50,052 bases of DNA from positions 1 to 50,052 of the forward strand of contig JAFGDR010000045.1 in NCBI GenBank assembly GCA_016932035.1, in the 5' to 3' direction. A program made the position numbers and the translations under genes. Positions within the stretch are counted from its first letter, which is position 1, and the number at the start of each line of letters is the position of its first letter. The notes below the pieces were generated by a model. The model did no database searches. It had not been told where the DNA came from and saw only the letters and a program-made list of their open reading frames with translations. Below are positions 10,131 to 18,365 of this stretch, in pieces. This DNA comes from Candidatus Cloacimonadota bacterium (GTDB lineage: Bacteria > Cloacimonadota > Cloacimonadia > JGIOTU-2).

Positions 10131-12074
10131 ATGAAAAAAGATAAAGAACTCTTTCGAAGCTGGACCATTATCGATCTCGATAACTTCAGGTATAATGTTG
10201 AAAAACTGAAGAATATTTTACCTGAAGAAACTGAATACATGCAAATCGTCAAGGCAGATGCTTATGGCCATGGGTCTGTTGAAATAGCTCGAGAAACAGC
10301 AAAACTCGGTATCAATTGGCTGGGAGTGGCAAACAGTGACGAAGGAGTTTTACTCAGATTGGAGGGCATCAAACAACGCATTCTTGTTCTAAGTCCTTCT
10401 TTTGAGAGCGAAATCGATACACTCGTCTCATATGATCTGACGCCATCCATCTCTGATATGCCATTTGCCAAAGCTTTGAATGCTTATGCAAAAAAGCATA
10501 ACAAACATATACCAATACATGTCCTTTTTGATACGGGAATGGGACGCGCAGGATTCATGTGGACTGATGTACAAGACATCGCTGAGCAAATTAAGTCATT
10601 CAGAAATCTGCAGATCGAAGGAATCTCTTCGCATTTTTCCATGAGCGAATCATCAGAGATATCCTTTGCAGAAAAGCAAAATGAACGGTTCCAAGAAATC
10701 ATTAAAGTATTTAAAGAAATCGGGATTGATCCGCCGTTAAAACACATCTCAAACAGTGCTGCTATCGTAAACTTCCCGCAATCTCATCTTACAATGATCC
10801 GTGCCGGACTTCTTTCTTATGGAATTTATACAGCAGAAAACCTGCACGATAAAATCGACCTCAAACCCGTGATGACCTTCAAGTCAAAGATTGGATTGAT
10901 CAAAGAGTTCCCTGAAGATATGGGAATAAGTTACAATCAGACTTATAGAACAAAATATCCAATTCGTGCAGCTATCCTGCCAATCGGATACGGTGACGGT
11001 TATAATTATCTCCTTTCAAACTGCGGAAAAGTGATTGTGCATGATACAATGTGCACTATTCTTGGGCGTGTTACAATGGATATGATCGTTGTTGATATCT
11101 CGAATGTTAAAAATGCAAAGATCGGTGATGAAGTCACGCTGATCGGTCATGAAAAAACCAGCGCCATAACCATCGAAGAACTGAGTTCTTTCTATGATGG
11201 ATTATCCTATGAAATGGCATGTAATCTTGGACGTCGTGCTCAGAGGATCTATATCCGTGAAAACAAAGATGCAACTATAGAGCCCATATCCCGCAGAACA
11301 TTCATAGCGAAAGATTTTACTGATACAACACTCGAAAAAGTAATAGAAACTTCACTTAATCAACGCTTGAACAGCAGCGAAATCGGGAGTATCGTATATA
11401 GCGAAGTCCTGAAAAATCTCTTCTATAGGGCAGACCGAGAAATGAGCTGGAAAAGGGACTTTATTCACGAAGTACAGCTTTCGGAAACAGAACTCGATCC
11501 GATCGTATCACAATTCTTCTATCAAACCAAAACAAAGCTACATTACAAAAAAAGGCTCACTCACGATTCCTTTAAGATCGTTTGTGCTACATCACCAAAA
11601 GCCCTCGAACAGTTCATTCTTGCACCGGATGTGGAGTATCGCTGGCTCCTTGATAGCAAGATCGACCTGGTGAACTCATTTACAATCGATAAGATCATGA
11701 TTGACGACCTCATACTTCATCATACTATTATTCAAAACGGAACATCACAGAGCGAATCATCCAACCTTGAGATCGAATGTTCCCATCCCAGACTTCGCGA
11801 ACTTCTCGGCAAGGAAGTGCAGTTCACGATCGACACAAGCACCTATTACCCAAAAGACAAGCATCAACTTACCATCTACATTGCAGAACTCACAAAAGGG
11901 ATCACCATGACCTTTGATTATTCCAGAACAAATATCAAAAAAGTTGAGATCGTACCGATCTTTTCCGGTAAAGAGAAATACCCCCAGGAAAGGATAAAGG
12001 GTAAAAAGATCATCATGAAGAGTTCATCAGAGGAATGGTTCTTCCCAAACAGCGGCGTTGTGTTTGTCTGGTGA
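10131..12074 (+). CDS. alr: Alanine racemase with an unidentified 260-residue C-terminal extension
   Basis: PLP enzyme converting L- to D-alanine for peptidoglycan. The racemase part (about residues 8-378) is complete: the PLP lysine lies in VKADAYGHG (Lys41), followed by the barrel motifs FDTGMGRAGF and HFSMSES. The second catalytic base is in ISYNQTY (Tyr268), then LPIGYGDGY and LGRVTMDMIVVD of the C-terminal beta domain. A normal Alr of 360-390 residues would stop here, but the frame continues without a break to residue 647. The extension has a helical start with RADREMSWKRDF and then a beta-rich segment ending WFFPNSGVVFVW; I do not recognise it. Base composition does not change across the junction. 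There is no Shine-Dalgarno sequence before the ATG. Confidence 0.92.
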   Translation: MKKDKELFRSWTIIDLDNFRYNVEKLKNILPEETEYMQIVKADAYGHGSVEIARETAKLGINWLGVANSDEGVLLRLEGIKQRILVLSPSFESEIDTLVSYDLTPSISDMPFAKALNAYAKKHNKHIPIHVLFDTGMGRAGFMWTDVQDIAEQIKSFRNLQIEGISSHFSMSESSEISFAEKQNERFQEIIKVFKEIGIDPPLKHISNSAAIVNFPQSHLTMIRAGLLSYGIYTAENLHDKIDLKPVMTFKSKIGLIKEFPEDMGISYNQTYRTKYPIRAAILPIGYGDGYNYLLSNCGKVIVHDTMCTILGRVTMDMIVVDISNVKNAKIGDEVTLIGHEKTSAITIEELSSFYDGLSYEMACNLGRRAQRIYIRENKDATIEPISRRTFIAKDFTDTTLEKVIETSLNQRLNSSEIGSIVYSEVLKNLFYRADREMSWKRDFIHEVQLSETELDPIVSQFFYQTKTKLHYKKRLTHDSFKIVCATSPKALEQFILAPDVEYRWLLDSKIDLVNSFTIDKIMIDDLILHHTIIQNGTSQSESSNLEIECSHPRLRELLGKEVQFTIDTSTYYPKDKHQLTIYIAELTKGITMTFDYSRTNIKKVEIVPIFSGKEKYPQERIKGKKIIMKSSSEEWFFPNSGVVFVW

Positions 12075-12149: not shown

Positions 12150-13052
12150 ATGGTTTCAAAATCTCAGAAAATCAGGTTAGGCATTTTTGCGTTAGTTGGC
12201 ATTGTCTTTTTGGTAATCCTTGTCGGAATTATTGTTGGATCAAAACTTTTTGATAAAAAGGACTTCTACTTTATTGCTTATAAGGGACAATCAGTCAGTG
12301 GATTGAACGTTGGAAGTGCCGTTCAATATCATGGTATCCGTGTTGGCAGGATCGAAGATCTCTCTATTGATAAAGAGGATGTAACAACAGTGATCGTTGA
12401 AATAAGCGTAAAAGCAGGAACCCCGATCAAGAAGGATGTTAAAGCAGTTATGGCTGCGGTCGGTATAACCGGTTTGAAGCAGATCGAATTGGTAGGTGGC
12501 GATCCCAGAGAAGTGAATCTAAAACCCGGATCCTATATCCAGCCGGGTGAATCAACCCTCGATATTATAACAGATAAAGCCCAGGATATTGCTGAAAAAG
12601 TTGATGAAATTCTGCGTAACATTGCCAATATTTTTAATGAGGAAACCCAGGAAAATATTCAGGAAGCTGTTGCAAACACGAATAATTCATTAAAAAACCT
12701 TAACCTCATACTTGATGAGAACAGGGCAGGTCTTAATGAGAGCATTCAAAACATAGCCCGGATCTCATCAGAACTTGCCGATCTACTCTCCACCATCAAT
12801 GATGTAACCCAACAACTTGATCTCGACCAATTTAATGCAACCATCAGTAATATTAATACATCCGTGTATGATCTGACTGAAGCGTTCAATAATATCAATT
12901 ATACAGTTCTTGAGAGTCGGGATGATGTGGTTGAAACGATTAGACTCCTCAAAGAAACCATGCAGAATATTAATGAATTTTCTCGCATGATTTCTGAGAA
13001 TCCATCACTGCTCTTCAAATCATCAAAGGACTCATATCAAGGAGGTCCATAA
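12150..13052 (+). CDS. mlaD: MlaD-like MCE-domain protein
   Basis: Periplasmic, membrane-anchored MCE protein of 300 residues, the lipid-binding subunit of an MCE/Mla ABC transporter that moves phospholipids between the two membranes. An N-terminal membrane helix (about 8-31) is followed by one MCE domain (about 38-115, with GQSVSGLNVGSAVQYHGIRVGRIEDL). A long helical, Asn/Ile-rich tail (about 140-290) probably forms a coiled coil or extends the ring. GGAG lies five bases before the ATG. The stop codon overlaps the next start (TAATG), so the two genes are translationally coupled. Confidence 0.92.
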   Translation: MVSKSQKIRLGIFALVGIVFLVILVGIIVGSKLFDKKDFYFIAYKGQSVSGLNVGSAVQYHGIRVGRIEDLSIDKEDVTTVIVEISVKAGTPIKKDVKAVMAAVGITGLKQIELVGGDPREVNLKPGSYIQPGESTLDIITDKAQDIAEKVDEILRNIANIFNEETQENIQEAVANTNNSLKNLNLILDENRAGLNESIQNIARISSELADLLSTINDVTQQLDLDQFNATISNINTSVYDLTEAFNNINYTVLESRDDVVETIRLLKETMQNINEFSRMISENPSLLFKSSKDSYQGGP

Positions 13053-13705
13053 TGAAGAACAAATATATCACATGTGTTTTTCTCATTCTTTTTCTTATCG
13101 TTGTAGGATGCTCCAGAATGCAATGGGCGCACTTTTATCTGCTTGATTATGTTCCACCGATTACGAAGTCTGATATTCTTGAAGAGCCATTCCCCTATAC
13201 TATTCAGGTCAAAGATTTCAAGATCGATAAAACATATGATAATTCCCGAATCGTTATTCGACAATCCGCTCATGAGGTTTATTACGATCGTTGGAGTTTG
13301 TGGGCACGCCGTCCTCAAGATGCAATGTCCGCACTCATCATAAACCATATAAGAGCATTGAATCTTGTGACAGAATGTAAGAAAACATTCCTTGATCAGC
13401 GTCCCGACTATATCATTACGGGCACGATACATAATATCGAAAAGTATGTCAGCGATCTCCCGCTGAATGAATTCCAACGAGCTGATATACGTATGACGAT
13501 TCAGATGTTACGAGAGAAAACAAATAATACTGTTGTTTCTTACGAGGTGAAACGTTATGCACCTCTATATACAGAGAGTATGAGTTTCTTTGCAAAGACG
13601 CTCAGCGATACTTTAAAAAACGAGATTACTATTTTCCTGAGAAAAGTACAGGAATATTTTGAACAATTGCAAGCAAATCAACCCGTCACTGTGCCGGGCA
13701 AGTAG
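13052..13705 (+). CDS. PqiC/ABC-auxiliary-type lipoprotein of the MCE system
   Basis: Lipoprotein of 217 residues with a signal ending IVVGCSRMQ (Cys20). The sequence after the Cys (HFYLLDYVPP) and later VKDFKIDKTYDNSRIVIRQSAHEVYYDRWSLWARRP fit the ABC-type transport auxiliary lipoprotein family (PqiC, DUF330). There a strand carrying YLL and a W-x-x-P motif are usual; these proteins sit in the outer membrane or periplasm and work with MCE proteins. The start overlaps the mlaD stop and has GGAGG just upstream inside mlaD. The call rests on motif pattern and context, which agree. Confidence 0.78.
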   Translation: MKNKYITCVFLILFLIVVGCSRMQWAHFYLLDYVPPITKSDILEEPFPYTIQVKDFKIDKTYDNSRIVIRQSAHEVYYDRWSLWARRPQDAMSALIINHIRALNLVTECKKTFLDQRPDYIITGTIHNIEKYVSDLPLNEFQRADIRMTIQMLREKTNNTVVSYEVKRYAPLYTESMSFFAKTLSDTLKNEITIFLRKVQEYFEQLQANQPVTVPGK

Positions 13706-13724: not shown

Positions 13725-15296
13725 ATGAAAAAAATAATTTTTATAACCTTTATATTGATTGGAGCATTGATTACATGTGCTTATGGGCAAACGCAACCGA
13801 GTTCGAATTTATGTCTTGAAGAAAAATACAAAACCTGGTATACACCGGAACCTTTAAGACAACTCGAAGAGGAAGGAATCGATGACCAGCTTGGCATGGG
13901 GAGAATTTTCGTCCCTGCAATGTCCGATCCTCAACTTGAACCAGAATATTTGATCTTTCAAAACGGGAAAATTGTTCGGGATAGATGTCCTGTTGGGCAG
14001 AGCATTTTCATGGACCCTGGAACATACACCCTTGTTGTTGGATCAGCAATCCATGAAGATCAAAATGTCGAAGTAAACATAACACTTAAAGCAGGACAGA
14101 CAAAGATCATTGAACCTATCTGGGGCGGACTCATCGTTAAGATTATCGATGAAAATCGTGACTTCCTTCGTGAACCATATGAAATATATGCTATCAATGA
14201 CTATATTAACAGCATAGGAACGAAATATAGTGCTGAAGAAGATGAGCCGGGAGAAAAGCAGGAAACATGGCTCCTGAAACCTGGTGTTTATAAGGTCATC
14301 AAATATGGTGAGTCACCAAAAACATATACAAACTTTACAACCATACGCGTTATGGAAGGTGTACTTGAAGAACTCACTATCGTTCTTAATTCCTCGACCG
14401 ATAACTTTATTGGGGCTGGTATCCTGCCGGAAATGAAGGAATCGGACCTTAAACATGCATGGAATTACTATACATCCATCAAAGGTAATTTCTTGCTGAG
14501 CAGCGATAATTCTGCAAACAAAGATGAATCTACAACCAATATTACCTTGAGCGCTAAACTGGATAATGAAATCAAATATGATGAATTCCCCTATTATTTC
14601 AATTCAAGACATAATTTGAATATTGGTTTCACGAAAGAACAGGATAAAGACTTTCGAATTTACTCAAATTCTCTGGAACTCCAACCTACCTTTATTTTCT
14701 ATTTTATTCGATCTCTCGGTGTCTATGCACGTCTTCGTGTTGAATCGAGCGTTTTCCCGACGAAGTTCTACTTTACAGCAAGCCAACCTTTTATATATAA
14801 AGTCAATACAGAAGGAGATACGGTTGATACTATAACGGATGAAGATAATGTTCAAATTTCTCCAATGCTCTATCCTCTCAATCTTGAAGAAGGTATTGGT
14901 CTCAATCTAACTGTTTTCAATACAAATACCAGCAACCTTTATATCAAAACGGGACTCGGTCTTTCTCAAACGATCAACTCCAATGTATATGAGCAGAATG
15001 GCACACAAGCAAATGTGTTTAATGAACTCGAATCCGTAAGTTTGAGAGGTTTCGAAGGAACGGTTGATGGTGATTTCCGCATTACTAATAACATCAACTA
15101 TGTTTTTGAATTCTATACCCTTTATCCTTTTGAAAAGGACAGAAAACAGATCATACGACTTGATAATACATTTAGTTTCAGGATCTCAAGCTATGTGTCT
15201 CTGGACTACACTATTACCATCAAGCAGGAAGAAGCGAAGGATTGGACATTGGTCGATCACAATCTCTCACTTGGTTTGACGATCATTTCATTCTAA
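13725..15296 (+). CDS. Putative outer-membrane beta-barrel protein in the MCE operon
   Basis: Exported protein of 523 residues with signal peptide 1-21 (ending CAYGQ). I do not recognise a named family. The N-terminal half (about 65-235) looks like one or two beta-sandwich modules (FMDPGTYTLVVGS, LLKPGVYKVIKYG), resembling PEGA or carboxypeptidase-regulatory repeats. The C-terminal half (about 255-523) consists of alternating amphipathic strands with many aromatic ends and terminates in an aromatic residue (LGLTIISF), as outer-membrane barrels do. A strong GGAGG precedes the start. It sits between the lipoprotein and permease genes of an MCE operon, so it may be the outer-membrane partner of that system; this role is inferred from position only. 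Confidence 0.6.
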   Translation: MKKIIFITFILIGALITCAYGQTQPSSNLCLEEKYKTWYTPEPLRQLEEEGIDDQLGMGRIFVPAMSDPQLEPEYLIFQNGKIVRDRCPVGQSIFMDPGTYTLVVGSAIHEDQNVEVNITLKAGQTKIIEPIWGGLIVKIIDENRDFLREPYEIYAINDYINSIGTKYSAEEDEPGEKQETWLLKPGVYKVIKYGESPKTYTNFTTIRVMEGVLEELTIVLNSSTDNFIGAGILPEMKESDLKHAWNYYTSIKGNFLLSSDNSANKDESTTNITLSAKLDNEIKYDEFPYYFNSRHNLNIGFTKEQDKDFRIYSNSLELQPTFIFYFIRSLGVYARLRVESSVFPTKFYFTASQPFIYKVNTEGDTVDTITDEDNVQISPMLYPLNLEEGIGLNLTVFNTNTSNLYIKTGLGLSQTINSNVYEQNGTQANVFNELESVSLRGFEGTVDGDFRITNNINYVFEFYTLYPFEKDRKQIIRLDNTFSFRISSYVSLDYTITIKQEEAKDWTLVDHNLSLGLTIISF

Positions 15297-15297
15297 C

Positions 15298-16395
15298 ATG
15301 AGTTCCTTTGAATATAAGGATAATACGATTGTCCTCCAAAACGAGTTGACGATCGAAAATGCAGAAGCATTCCTTAAATTTGTTTCTACAAATCTTTCTT
15401 CTATTAGACAAAATGCATCTCTCACTATCGATGCTCATAATCTTGAGTCAATTGATAGTGCTGGTGTTGCAGCAATAGACCAAGTTATCGATAACCTTAA
15501 GAAATTATCGATTAAAACCGATATCGTCAACACTTCTGACAAAGTACAGAAATCGCTCACAGCTTTTTCATCGCTGGATTTAACGCAAAAGGATTTCAAC
15601 AAACCCAAAAAGTTAGGATATCTTGAAAACCTTGGAGATAAGGGTTATACCCTCTTTGACAACATTAAATATTTCATATATCTGGCAGCAGATATGTTTT
15701 ATTGGGGATTAGCCGGCATTTTTTCAAAAAAAGGACAGCGTAAAGGAGAGTTCGTTGTACAGGGCAACCTGATAGGAGTAAATGCACTACCTATTGTCGG
15801 ATTGATCTCTTTTCTTGTCGGCTTTATTCTTTCTCTCCAGTCTGCACAGCAATTAAGAAGTTTTGGGGCAAATATATTTATCGTCGATCTTATTGCTATT
15901 TCAATGACTCGTGAAATGGGTCCCCTCATGACTGCCATCATTCTTGCAGGCAGAAGCGGTTCAGCAATTGCATCAGAAATTGCCACAATGAAAATTTCAG
16001 AAGAACTCGATGCTCTCAAAACTATGGCTTTAAATCCCATCAAATATGTTGTTCTGCCAAAATTATATGCAATGACAATCTCAACTCCGCTCCTTACGAT
16101 CTTTGCTGACATCATCGGTATAGCCGGCGGTTTCCTGATCGGTATCACATATCTGAAACTCAGTCCAACCGCGTTTGTGGACAGAATGGCAAATGTCATG
16201 GTTCTCAAAGACATCATCACCAGTGTGGTAAAAAGCTTTGTGTTCGCATGGCTGATCACAATCGTTGGTGTCTTCTTTGGACTGCGTGCCAAAGGTGGTG
16301 CCGGTGGTGTGGGTCGCTCGACAACTGCATCGGTTGTTACTGCAATATTTATGGTAATTGTTGCTGATTCCGTGCTTGGATTACTTTTCTACTAA
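15298..16395 (+). CDS. mlaE: STAS-MlaE fusion, MCE transporter permease
   Basis: Inner-membrane permease of the MCE lipid transporter, 365 residues. Residues 1-100 form a STAS domain (LQNELTIENAEAFLKF, SIDSAGVAAIDQVID), the role played by the separate MlaB in E. coli. Residues about 125-365 are the MlaE/YrbE permease, with FVVQGNLIGVNALPIVGLI, LRSFGANIFIVDLIAISMTREMGP and EELDALKTMALNP, all typical. The ATG lies one base after the previous stop, without its own strong ribosome binding site, which suggests translational coupling. Such STAS-MlaE fusions are known in many Gram-negative genomes. Confidence 0.93.
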   Translation: MSSFEYKDNTIVLQNELTIENAEAFLKFVSTNLSSIRQNASLTIDAHNLESIDSAGVAAIDQVIDNLKKLSIKTDIVNTSDKVQKSLTAFSSLDLTQKDFNKPKKLGYLENLGDKGYTLFDNIKYFIYLAADMFYWGLAGIFSKKGQRKGEFVVQGNLIGVNALPIVGLISFLVGFILSLQSAQQLRSFGANIFIVDLIAISMTREMGPLMTAIILAGRSGSAIASEIATMKISEELDALKTMALNPIKYVVLPKLYAMTISTPLLTIFADIIGIAGGFLIGITYLKLSPTAFVDRMANVMVLKDIITSVVKSFVFAWLITIVGVFFGLRAKGGAGGVGRSTTASVVTAIFMVIVADSVLGLLFY

Positions 16396-16400
16396 TCTTT

Positions 16401-17141
16401 ATGAATAAAACAATCGAGATAAAAGACCTTGTTACAGAATATGATGGTCGAAGGATTCTCGATGGTATAACCCTCGATATTTATGAAAATGAAGTTTTTA
16501 TCATTCTCGGTGGAAGCGGGTGTGGTAAAACAACCCTTCTCAAGCACATAATAGGTTTGTTGAAACCGGTATCCGGTTCTATAAAAATTTTTGGTCAGGA
16601 AACAACGACCATGGAAGAGGAAGATTTTGAGGATATCCTCATGAAATGCGGCGTTCTTTTTCAAAATGGTGCACTCCTGAACTCACTTTCCATCGGAGAA
16701 AATGTTGCGATTCCGCTTGAACAGCACTCAAACCTCGATCGTGATCTGATAAACAGGATCATCGAGACGAAGCTTAATCTTGTCGAACTTGCTCATGCTA
16801 TGTACTTATCGCCAGCTGAACTTTCCGGTGGCATGAGAAAACGCGCAGCACTTGCGCGTGCAATAGCACTCGATCCCCAACTCCTCTTTTGTGACGAGCC
16901 TTCAGCCGGGCTGGATCCGATAACGTCAGCAGCGATCGATAAGCTACTCCTGCAGATGAAACATCAGCTCAACATGACGATCACTGTTGTCACACACGAA
17001 CTTGCGAGCATTCATAGAATTGCAGACAGGATCGTTTTTCTGGATAAGGGAAAAGCACTGTTCGTTGGTACGCTCAAAGAAGCACTGAATTCGGACATCA
17101 AAGAGATCCAGGAATTCTTTACTGTCGGAAGGTTCGAATAA
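16401..17141 (+). CDS. mlaF: MlaF-like ABC transporter ATPase
   Basis: ATP-binding subunit of the MCE transporter, 246 residues. Walker A (GGSGCGKTT, about 37-45), the Q loop (LFQNGALLNSLS), the signature LSGGMRKRAALARA and Walker B with LLFCDEPSAGLDP, plus the switch His (VTHEL), are all intact. The LSGGMRKR form of the signature and the GALLNSL segment are typical of MlaF/TTG2A. It follows mlaE after 5 nt in the same operon. Confidence 0.94.
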   Translation: MNKTIEIKDLVTEYDGRRILDGITLDIYENEVFIILGGSGCGKTTLLKHIIGLLKPVSGSIKIFGQETTTMEEEDFEDILMKCGVLFQNGALLNSLSIGENVAIPLEQHSNLDRDLINRIIETKLNLVELAHAMYLSPAELSGGMRKRAALARAIALDPQLLFCDEPSAGLDPITSAAIDKLLLQMKHQLNMTITVVTHELASIHRIADRIVFLDKGKALFVGTLKEALNSDIKEIQEFFTVGRFE

Positions 17142-17142
17142 T

Positions 17143-17820
17143 ATGATCGGGACTCTGGTAAACGTTGGTGCAGTTATTATGGGGAGTACGATTGGGCTTG
17201 TTCTTAGAAAACAGCTTCCCCAAAAACTAACTACTATTGCTTTTCAGTCGATCGGGCTTTTCACTATTTTTCTGGGATTTACCATGGCACTGAAAACCGA
17301 GCACTATCTCATCCTGATATTCAGTCTTATATTCGGTTCGATCATTGGACAGCTCATCGATATCGATGCATGGCTTATGAGGATAAGCGAATCATTAAAG
17401 AAAAAATGGCATTCTAAAAATGATAAATTTTCAGAAGGATTGGTCACAGCGTTTCTCCTTTTCTGCATGGGTTCAATGACGATACTTGGCGCAATCGAAG
17501 AAGGACTTGGTGGCGATCCGAATCTTCTTCTTGCCAAATCCCTTCTTGATGGGTTTGCTTCGATAGCACTTGCGGCAGCCCTTGGAATCGGTGTTATGCT
17601 TTCAGTTATTCCGCTTCTTATCTACCAGGGTGGGTTGACCCTCTGTGCAAAACTTTTTGAACAGTCTGTGACAGTTCCCATCATGAATGAACTAACTGCA
17701 GTTGGAGGTATCATTCTTATCGGTTTGGGAATTTCAATTCTTGAAATCAAAAAATTAAAAGTAATAAATATGCTGCCGGCTTTGGTCATAGCAGTAGTGC
17801 TTACAATAATTTTTGTATGA
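17143..17820 (+). CDS. DUF554 (YqgA-type) membrane protein
   Basis: Integral membrane protein of 225 residues with about six hydrophobic segments. It begins MIGTLVNVGAVIMGSTIGL and contains FCMGSMTILGAIEEGLGGD and LLAKSLLDGFASIALA, the hallmark segments of DUF554/YqgA. The function is unknown. It starts one base after the mlaF stop and thus shares its transcript, but DUF554 genes occur in many contexts, so a role in lipid transport should not be assumed. Confidence 0.88.
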   Translation: MIGTLVNVGAVIMGSTIGLVLRKQLPQKLTTIAFQSIGLFTIFLGFTMALKTEHYLILIFSLIFGSIIGQLIDIDAWLMRISESLKKKWHSKNDKFSEGLVTAFLLFCMGSMTILGAIEEGLGGDPNLLLAKSLLDGFASIALAAALGIGVMLSVIPLLIYQGGLTLCAKLFEQSVTVPIMNELTAVGGIILIGLGISILEIKKLKVINMLPALVIAVVLTIIFV

Positions 17821-17864
17821 ACGTGGTTCAAAAGCTAATCAAAACAAAAACTCCTGGAGGAGCA

Positions 17865-18365
17865 ATGAAAAAACTACTCTTACTTGTTGTGGGTGTCATC
17901 TTCATAACAATGGCACTGTATGCAGACAACCTTTCACCAGTCGGTTGGTGGAAAACCATCGATGATGAGTCTGGTGAAGCTAAATCAATTGTTAACATAT
18001 GGATTGAAAATGGAACAATGTATGGCAAGATCGTGAAACTGTTCCGTAAACCCGATGAGGATCAGAATCCTGTATGCGCAAAAGGTTCAGGCGACCTTAC
18101 TGGAAAACCAATGCTTGGTTCCACCATTATGTGGGGATTGACTGAAGATAAAGACGGATGGTGGGATGGTGGAAAGATCCTCGATCCGAAAAAAGGAAAG
18201 ATCTATAATTGTAAGATCCGCACAATAGAAGAAGGTGCAAAACTTCAAGTGCGTGGTTACATCAAAGCAATCATTCAAATAGGCAGAAGCCAGGTTTGGG
18301 AACGGGTACCTGAACCAGTCGAGGTAGAACAACCCAAAAAGGTCATTGAAGAAGGAAATAAGTAA
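17865..18365 (+). CDS. DUF2147 exported protein
   Basis: Exported protein of 166 residues with signal peptide 1-20 (ending LYADN). The mature part fits DUF2147: GWWKTIDDESGEAKSIVNIW, a KIVKLFRKPDED segment, a WGLTEDKDGWWDGGKILDP segment and the closing LQVRGYI...WERV. The family is a small beta barrel; some members are linked to stress or organic-acid tolerance, with no firm mechanism. The start chosen (17865) follows TGGAGG closely; an open frame reaching back to 17817 would overlap the previous gene and has no ribosome binding site. It ends the MCE operon before a clear terminator. Confidence 0.85.
   Translation: MKKLLLLVVGVIFITMALYADNLSPVGWWKTIDDESGEAKSIVNIWIENGTMYGKIVKLFRKPDEDQNPVCAKGSGDLTGKPMLGSTIMWGLTEDKDGWWDGGKILDPKKGKIYNCKIRTIEEGAKLQVRGYIKAIIQIGRSQVWERVPEPVEVEQPKKVIEEGNK

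Follow-up and report, generated by a model that had tools for sequence, protein, structure and literature searches.

A predicted outer-membrane β-barrel encoded beside, or fused to, a PqiC-like lipoprotein as a probable dedicated subunit of MCE transporters in Cloacimonadota and other phyla

What serves an MCE lipid transporter at the outer membrane when neither MlaA nor MlaC accompanies it? MlaE and MlaF form, with a hexamer of the MCE protein MlaD, a lipid transporter of the ABC class, and genes of this kind lie in a contig of a Candidatus Cloacimonadota bacterium (GenBank JAFGDR010000045.1; 50 052 nucleotides, referred to below as the window), which is one of the 66 contigs of a 2.44 Mb genome. 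The original prediction, made from the sequence alone, had described an exported protein between a PqiC-like lipoprotein and a STAS-MlaE permease, with N-terminal β-sandwich modules and C-terminal amphipathic strands ending in Phe. It was proposed to be a barrel that could provide a different outer-membrane end of the lipid path. Open-reading-frame calls and Pfam identities agree with this location and with the tight, co-directional order D, lipoprotein, barrel, E, F (Table 1): the first two genes overlap by one base, the later gaps are 19, 1 and 5 bases, and all of the genes are on the + strand.

Table 1. Features of the MCE operon, with positions in the window.
Feature	Positions	Strand	Description
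mlaD-like gene	12150..13052	+	300 aa; TM helix, single MCE domain (47-116); Pfam MlaD E 6e-14
PqiC-like outer-membrane lipoprotein	13052..13705	+	217 aa; Pfam ABC_trans_aux (PqiC family) E 7e-7; lipobox VVGC, residues 17-20, by pattern
Barrel protein, exported (predicted)	13725..15296	+	523 aa
Signal-peptide helix of barrel protein	13725..13784	+	Residues 1-20; AF2 helix 2-20
Two β-sandwich domains of barrel protein	13899..14420	+	Residues 59-142 and 143-232; AF2 model; presumed periplasmic
14-stranded barrel domain (predicted)	14460..15290	+	Residues 246-522; AF2 model, fold matches, strand alternation
STAS-MlaE fused permease	15298..16395	+	365 aa; Pfam MlaE E 2e-74, STAS E 1e-6
MlaF-like ATPase	16401..17141	+	246 aa; Pfam ABC_tran E 8e-30; NCBIfam best model MlaF, under its cut-off

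The operon contains the gene set of an MCE transporter, namely a STAS-MlaE permease, an MlaF-type ATPase and a membrane-anchored MCE protein. The last of these matches the Pfam MlaD model at 52.4 bits against a cut-off of 25.1, and the final ~150 of its 300 residues are likely to be helical, judging by coiled-coil-type Pfam side hits and by the length. The barrel gene is an ATG-initiated open reading frame that spans exactly 13725-15296 on the + strand and encodes a product with the C-terminus ...LTIISF. A pattern search for a standard lipobox in its signal peptide gave no match. Against Pfam and NCBIfam this protein gave nothing above cut-off, whereas its neighbours all exceeded the Pfam cut-off. 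The DUF481 model (PF04338) reached E = 0.015 (15.8 bits against a cut-off of 21.1), and 24 of the 35 aligned family members matched it at E 0.1 or better (best 9e-12).

The surroundings of the operon were also recorded. Upstream on the same strand (10131-12074) is an alanine racemase of 647 aa in which the strong Pfam matches are confined to residues 14-374; its last ~270 residues have no convincing Pfam match, yet are conserved among relatives of the same family. Closely 3' of mlaF and in the same direction are DUF554 and DUF2147 genes (17143-18365, +), which recur beside mlaF in congeners (both at L031, only DUF2147 at L032) and in none of the other families read. The source genome (G000) encodes three MCE proteins in all. 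One of its two other MCE neighbourhoods is MlaF-MlaD (contig C1, L064) and the other is MlaE-MlaF-MlaD followed by a predicted 283-aa lipoprotein (contig C40, L065); BLAST with the window operon found neither PqiC nor the barrel at either of them.

The fold of the barrel protein was predicted with AF2 from a 35-sequence alignment (mean pLDDT 85.9). The model consists of a signal helix (residues 2-20), β-sandwich strands between residues 59 and 232 that form two domains, and 14 long strands between residues 246 and 522, so that the sandwich modules and the C-terminal strands of the original prediction are both recovered, and structure prediction, for which a barrel-less outcome had been named as refutation, yields a 14-stranded barrel. 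Averaged over the family, the alternation of inward and outward hydrophobicity along the barrel strands is 2.47, compared with 1.04 +/- 0.21 for 2000 shuffles, none of which was as high. Comparison with solved folds using Foldseek and VIA-align, in which the matches span residues 244-523 and hence the barrel part only, gave Tsx (Z 15.0, r.m.s.d. 3.5 Å, 204 aligned residues), NanC (Z 13.3), KdgM (Z 12.8) and OmpG (Z 11.9). Outward-facing barrel positions are 59% ILVMFA; inward-facing positions are 16% KR, 17% DE, 36% NQSTH, 10% G and 16% ILVMFA. Residues G332, Y334, P384, G392, G410, G412 and G442 of the barrel are strictly or nearly conserved, as are G59, G99, Y101, G106, W133, L184, F204, T206, G230 and G232 in the sandwich domains. 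For the latter a weak PEGA-like hint was obtained in two of the 35 members (best E 0.032). The longest barrel loop (418-437) and the N-terminus are on opposite sides, an arrangement that periplasmic sandwiches would predict. The prediction thus combines an export signal, an even number of amphipathic antiparallel strands and a C-terminal aromatic residue (F or Y in 31 of the 57 family rows), and the protein is confidently predicted to be a 14-stranded outer-membrane barrel. With pTM values of 0.53 (window barrel model) and 0.44 (fused model, described below), the mutual placement of the domains is not given by the models.

The barrel was then sought in 124 genomes of the phylum, mostly metagenome bins in which absences can be gaps. 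Matches at E 0.001 or better were obtained in 113 genomes; those in G046, G055 and G070 were weak (E 3e-9 to 1e-4) and were discounted as other DUF481-like barrels, a type that was common as weak matches in this search. A strong homologue is therefore present in 110 of the 124 genomes, and in 66 of the 70 better genomes (68 in the raw tally). Among the 14 barrel-less genomes, five have no MlaE match at all and are all 54-72% complete; G003 (64% complete), G019, G046, G054, G055, G061, G070 and G102 have only a STAS-less MlaE, and in G112 the STAS-MlaE gene is cut by the contig end. Barrel-less genomes that still encode an MlaE thus retain only a STAS-less paralogue, with one contig-edge exception, and the seven such genomes besides G003 are taken as evidence of co-loss of the barrel and STAS-MlaE. 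Genus g9 of family f3 (Cloacimonas-like; G019, G046, G054, G055 and G070), in which the whole STAS-MlaE system and the barrel are missing and the STAS-less MlaE is kept, forms a natural deletion set.

Absence of the gene from the operon in close relatives had likewise been named as an outcome that would count against the prediction; close and distant relatives alike retain the gene at this place. On a contig of Candidatus Celaenobacter antarcticus the gene order is the same, with a barrel 77% identical to that of the window, and STAS-MlaE adjoins the barrel in 19 of the 20 phylum loci read with flanks. The operon is disturbed in three of these 20: at L036 MlaD-PqiC-barrel is present and MlaE is on another contig, at L033 a glucanotransferase takes the place of MlaD and PqiC upstream of the barrel, and at L037 (4093-9092) the row is ftsK, lolA, a PqiC-like lipoprotein and the barrel, with lolA replacing mlaD. 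Upstream neighbours were considered as a clue to the substrate and were rejected, being urocanase and UDP-glucose pyrophosphorylase in one family and SprA-like in another, and not conserved across families. MlaA and MlaC were each found in none of the 124 genomes, with E. coli and Caulobacter controls positive; the lipoprotein and shuttle of the classic Mla pathway are thus absent from this set, and a PqiC-homologous lipoprotein accompanies MlaDEF, as in the Mpc type. LpxC was found in 111 of the 124 genomes, which indicates that the cells can make lipid A. The LpxC domains (268 positions) are within open reading frames of mostly 464-510 aa, suggesting fusion to a second enzyme, perhaps of the FabZ type.

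In more distant families of Cloacimonadota there is no separate lipoprotein gene, and the barrel open reading frame is ~200 residues longer at its front; in many relatives PqiC and the barrel are one protein of ~700 residues. All 19 aligned fused members match ABC_trans_aux and retain the lipobox Cys. With a strict lipobox pattern, 21 of 30 rows (the broken L038 among them) were missed although many of the sites look genuine; by eye the Cys is in place in every one of these rows but L038. A model of the fused protein L041 (pLDDT 81.6, with a low-confidence linker at 203-228) matched E. coli PqiC through residues 26-200 (8q2c_A, Z 18.7, r.m.s.d. 2.9 Å, 162 aligned residues; 8q2d_A, Z 18.6) and Tsx through its barrel part (~420-705; Z 16.9). 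On a 58-row tree of the sandwich and barrel domains, built by a quick method, in which several forks have weak support and one branch (L145) is long, at least three changes between the fused and split states were counted over 56 rows, with L038 (broken) and L114 (cut) excluded. Fusion is present in four phyla: Cloacimonadota, Fidelibacterota, Spirochaetota and Myxococcota. Since proteins that are separate in the window are repeatedly one polypeptide elsewhere, a physical partnership of the PqiC-like lipoprotein and the barrel is suggested. In L038 (6258-8492, genome G051) the PqiC part of the fused gene contains a frame break, real or due to assembly error; in G090, of the same family, the fused gene is intact.

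Contigs of named genomes, from the phylum and beyond it, were scanned with a 65-residue MlaE alignment and 80 loci were kept. A full-length barrel is present in 63 of them (50 fused, 12 split and one cut) and a piece of barrel at a contig end in four more; as the loci were chosen by MlaE, the count tells how often MlaE brings the barrel and not the reverse. In 13 loci there is no barrel (L079, L107, L129, L130, L134, L136, L137, L139, L140, L143, L147, L148 and L150), some of them at contig ends, and in a later search the genomes of L107, L129 and L134 proved to carry one elsewhere. A PqiC-like gene occurs without a barrel at L130 and L137 (Spirochaetota), L139 (Calditrichota), L140 and L147 (KSB1) and L150 (Acidobacteriota), so the barrel is not required everywhere in such MCE and PqiC operons. 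Carriers outside Cloacimonadota are found in Fidelibacterota (L089, L094, L114), Delongbacteria (L128, L133, L135, L141), KSB1 (L116), Spirochaetota (L145) and Myxococcota (L144, L146); their profile E-values range between 1e-261 and 6e-30, the latter for a contig-end piece. The order is D-[PqiC-barrel]-E-F or D-PqiC-barrel-E-F in Delongbacteria, KSB1, Spirochaetota and Fidelibacterota, and E-F-D-PqiC-barrel in Myxococcota, where PqiC and the barrel are fused in some loci and split in others. The module is therefore common to at least six phyla, Cloacimonadota included. A common function is indicated most strongly by the persistence of the linkage despite an altered gene order, together with the fusion in four phyla.

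Searches of whole phyla gave matches in 35 of 245 Fidelibacterota genomes (15 strong at E 2e-169 or better, and one more contig-end piece), in two of 392 Spirochaetota genomes and in 115 of 377 Myxococcota genomes, the last a mixture with many barrel-only proteins. Among the sandwich-and-barrel loci read in Myxococcota, 14 of 22 are in MCE operons and eight are outside them (L174, which is near a contig start, L180-L183, L191, L214 and L215), and the fold is thus not exclusive to the MCE job. Of the nine barrel-only loci (L184-L190, L194 and L201; ~345-436 aa), none is in an MCE operon and none has PqiC or MCE genes nearby; L184 is above the DUF3078 cut-off.

The recurrent fusion and the co-loss with STAS-MlaE lead us to conclude that the product of 13725-15296 is probably an outer-membrane subunit dedicated to an MCE (Mla/Mpc-type) transporter, working with the PqiC-like lipoprotein. 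The idea that a barrel encoded in the operon is a different solution for the outer-membrane end gains support from the fusion to PqiC in most relatives and from the missing MlaA and MlaC. An ordinary outer-membrane channel gene that stands in the operon by chance and serves something else could be imagined from the Myxococcota homologues outside MCE operons, both barrel-only and sandwich-barrel, and from the wide spread of DUF481-type barrels as weak matches. This is made highly improbable by repeated fusion to PqiC, by loss along with STAS-MlaE and by a linkage that six phyla share in two gene orders, and a hitchhiking channel was rejected on the recurrent fusion and the co-loss. A barrel that merely anchors a PqiC ring, with lipid handed over at the inner leaflet and no role of the barrel in transfer, is a possibility that we hold to be doubtful. 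It would agree with the fusion to the PqiC domain, with the relatives that have PqiC only and with the view that PqiC alone stabilizes the outer-membrane contact of PqiB (PMC10897342); PqiC is, however, already lipid-anchored (its Cys is invariant in the 19 fused members), which makes a second anchor look redundant, and the conserved inward-facing residues of the barrel suggest more than anchoring.

That the barrel is itself the conduit, its lumen or a lateral gate serving as the lipid passage in the manner of LptD for LPS, is unlikely. Its dedication to a lipid transporter and the near-invariant barrel residues listed above would suit such a role, but the model has just 14 strands, the inward positions are polar or charged and unsuited to acyl chains, and fusion implies several barrels per needle if PqiC forms a ring. 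A path through the lumen of a single barrel is thus probably not used, as far as the model can tell, and the polar lumen makes passage around or between barrels likelier than passage through one. As to purpose, a nutritional role, with lipids or other hydrophobic compounds imported from outside, in place of upkeep of outer-membrane asymmetry appears rather improbable, if less so than the conduit: uptake of lipids or gamma-hexachlorocyclohexane by other MCE systems is known (PMC5561183) and a porin-like barrel would suit uptake, whereas near-universality in one phylum fits housekeeping better and LpxC is encoded in most of that phylum.

Beyond the partnership of a dedicated barrel subunit with PqiC, we infer the mechanism, including the ring, its stoichiometry, the lipid path and the direction. 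MlaF and STAS-MlaE would power an MlaD hexamer whose helical tail, ~225 Å long if a straight helix, has a length that fits crossing of the periplasm. PqiC-like domains would form a ring beneath the outer membrane, at its inner face, and receive the MlaD tip, with the β-sandwich domains as spacers holding the barrel to this ring. The part that MlaA with OmpC plays in E. coli would fall to the barrels, which would fix the ring in the outer membrane and open a way to the lipid of the outer leaflet; lipid would then pass between or around the barrels and along the central needle. As to direction, import from the outer membrane would be slightly favoured. Fusion fixes the ratio of PqiC to barrel at 1:1, so that if PqiC forms a ring in the fused proteins, the barrels do so as well. 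The PqiC of E. coli is an octameric toroid ~100 Å wide at the outer membrane, proposed to accept the tip of PqiB (PMC10897342). A 14-stranded barrel was computed to be ~35-37 Å wide, such that eight abreast need a ring radius of 45-49 Å, which fits an octamer of this size. By analogy, a PqiC ring of eight might tentatively be pictured as bearing six to eight of the 14-stranded barrels, arranged as a rosette about the MlaD tip, with the exchange site in the membrane inside or between the barrels and not in a lumen.

A barrel encoded with or fused to a PqiC-like lipoprotein may be the missing outer-membrane end of MCE transporters without MlaA and MlaC, and through the fusion both stoichiometry and contact can be tested directly. 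In the literature covered, which included few subscription papers and no preprints, we found no account of a PqiC-barrel fusion or of such a barrel in MCE operons. A 2017 survey of MCE neighbourhoods, covering Proteobacteria only, names the PqiC-type lipoprotein domain (DUF330) as the commonest downstream domain, and its main text contains no word starting with 'barrel' (PMC5561183). The Mpc-type set without a barrel is already known; the dedicated barrel in an Mpc-like MCE system appears, from the literature covered, to be new. In Brucella abortus the Mpc system (MpcEFDA; PMC12436622) resembles that of the window in its STAS-MlaE, MlaF, MlaD of ~300-330 aa with a long helical tail, PqiC-homologous lipoprotein and lack of MlaA and MlaC. 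Its STAS-MlaE, MlaF, long MlaD and PqiC homologue co-purify as one complex, for which a needle across the periplasm has been modelled (PMC12436622); assembly of the part without the barrel is thus established. The four-gene mpc operon has no barrel (PMC12436622), whereas the window has a sandwich-and-barrel protein beside, and in relatives fused to, the PqiC homologue.

In E. coli Mla a lipoprotein and a barrel (MlaA with OmpC) are likewise at the outer-membrane end (PMC10665443), but MlaA is of another family (PF04333) and OmpC is a general porin encoded elsewhere. In E. coli PqiABC, too, an MCE needle has at its outer-membrane end a lipoprotein of the PqiC fold (PMC10897342, 8q2c); this system differs in having no MlaE/MlaF-type transporter, a multi-MCE PqiB and no barrel partner described. 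The exopolysaccharide exporter PelB/PelC was among the fold matches of the window and fused models, and the likeness, a ring lipoprotein of PqiC-like fold (PelC) with an outer-membrane barrel (PelB), consists of these fold matches only; it exports polysaccharide and is not an MCE system. The PelB barrel is not known to be fused to the PelC ring protein. Chloroplast TGD1-5, an MCE lipid importer with TGD4 as a dedicated outer-envelope barrel, also resembles the window system, although TGD4 is not known to be linked to PqiC. In Veillonella parvula, MlaEFD lacks MlaA and MlaC, has a barrel at the outer-membrane end and implies several barrels per MlaD hexamer, as proposed here, but that barrel has ten strands and is the C-terminus of MlaD (PMC10665443). 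In the window MlaD is a separate gene of 300 aa and the barrel, with 14 predicted strands, is its own open reading frame tied to PqiC. If the rosette is correct, Veillonella has reached a similar one through barrels on MlaD. That study reports that MlaD bears no barrel in the FCB and PVC groups, and suggests that as yet unidentified proteins might serve there (PMC10665443); the barrel described here is a candidate for such an outer-membrane partner in FCB-related phyla.
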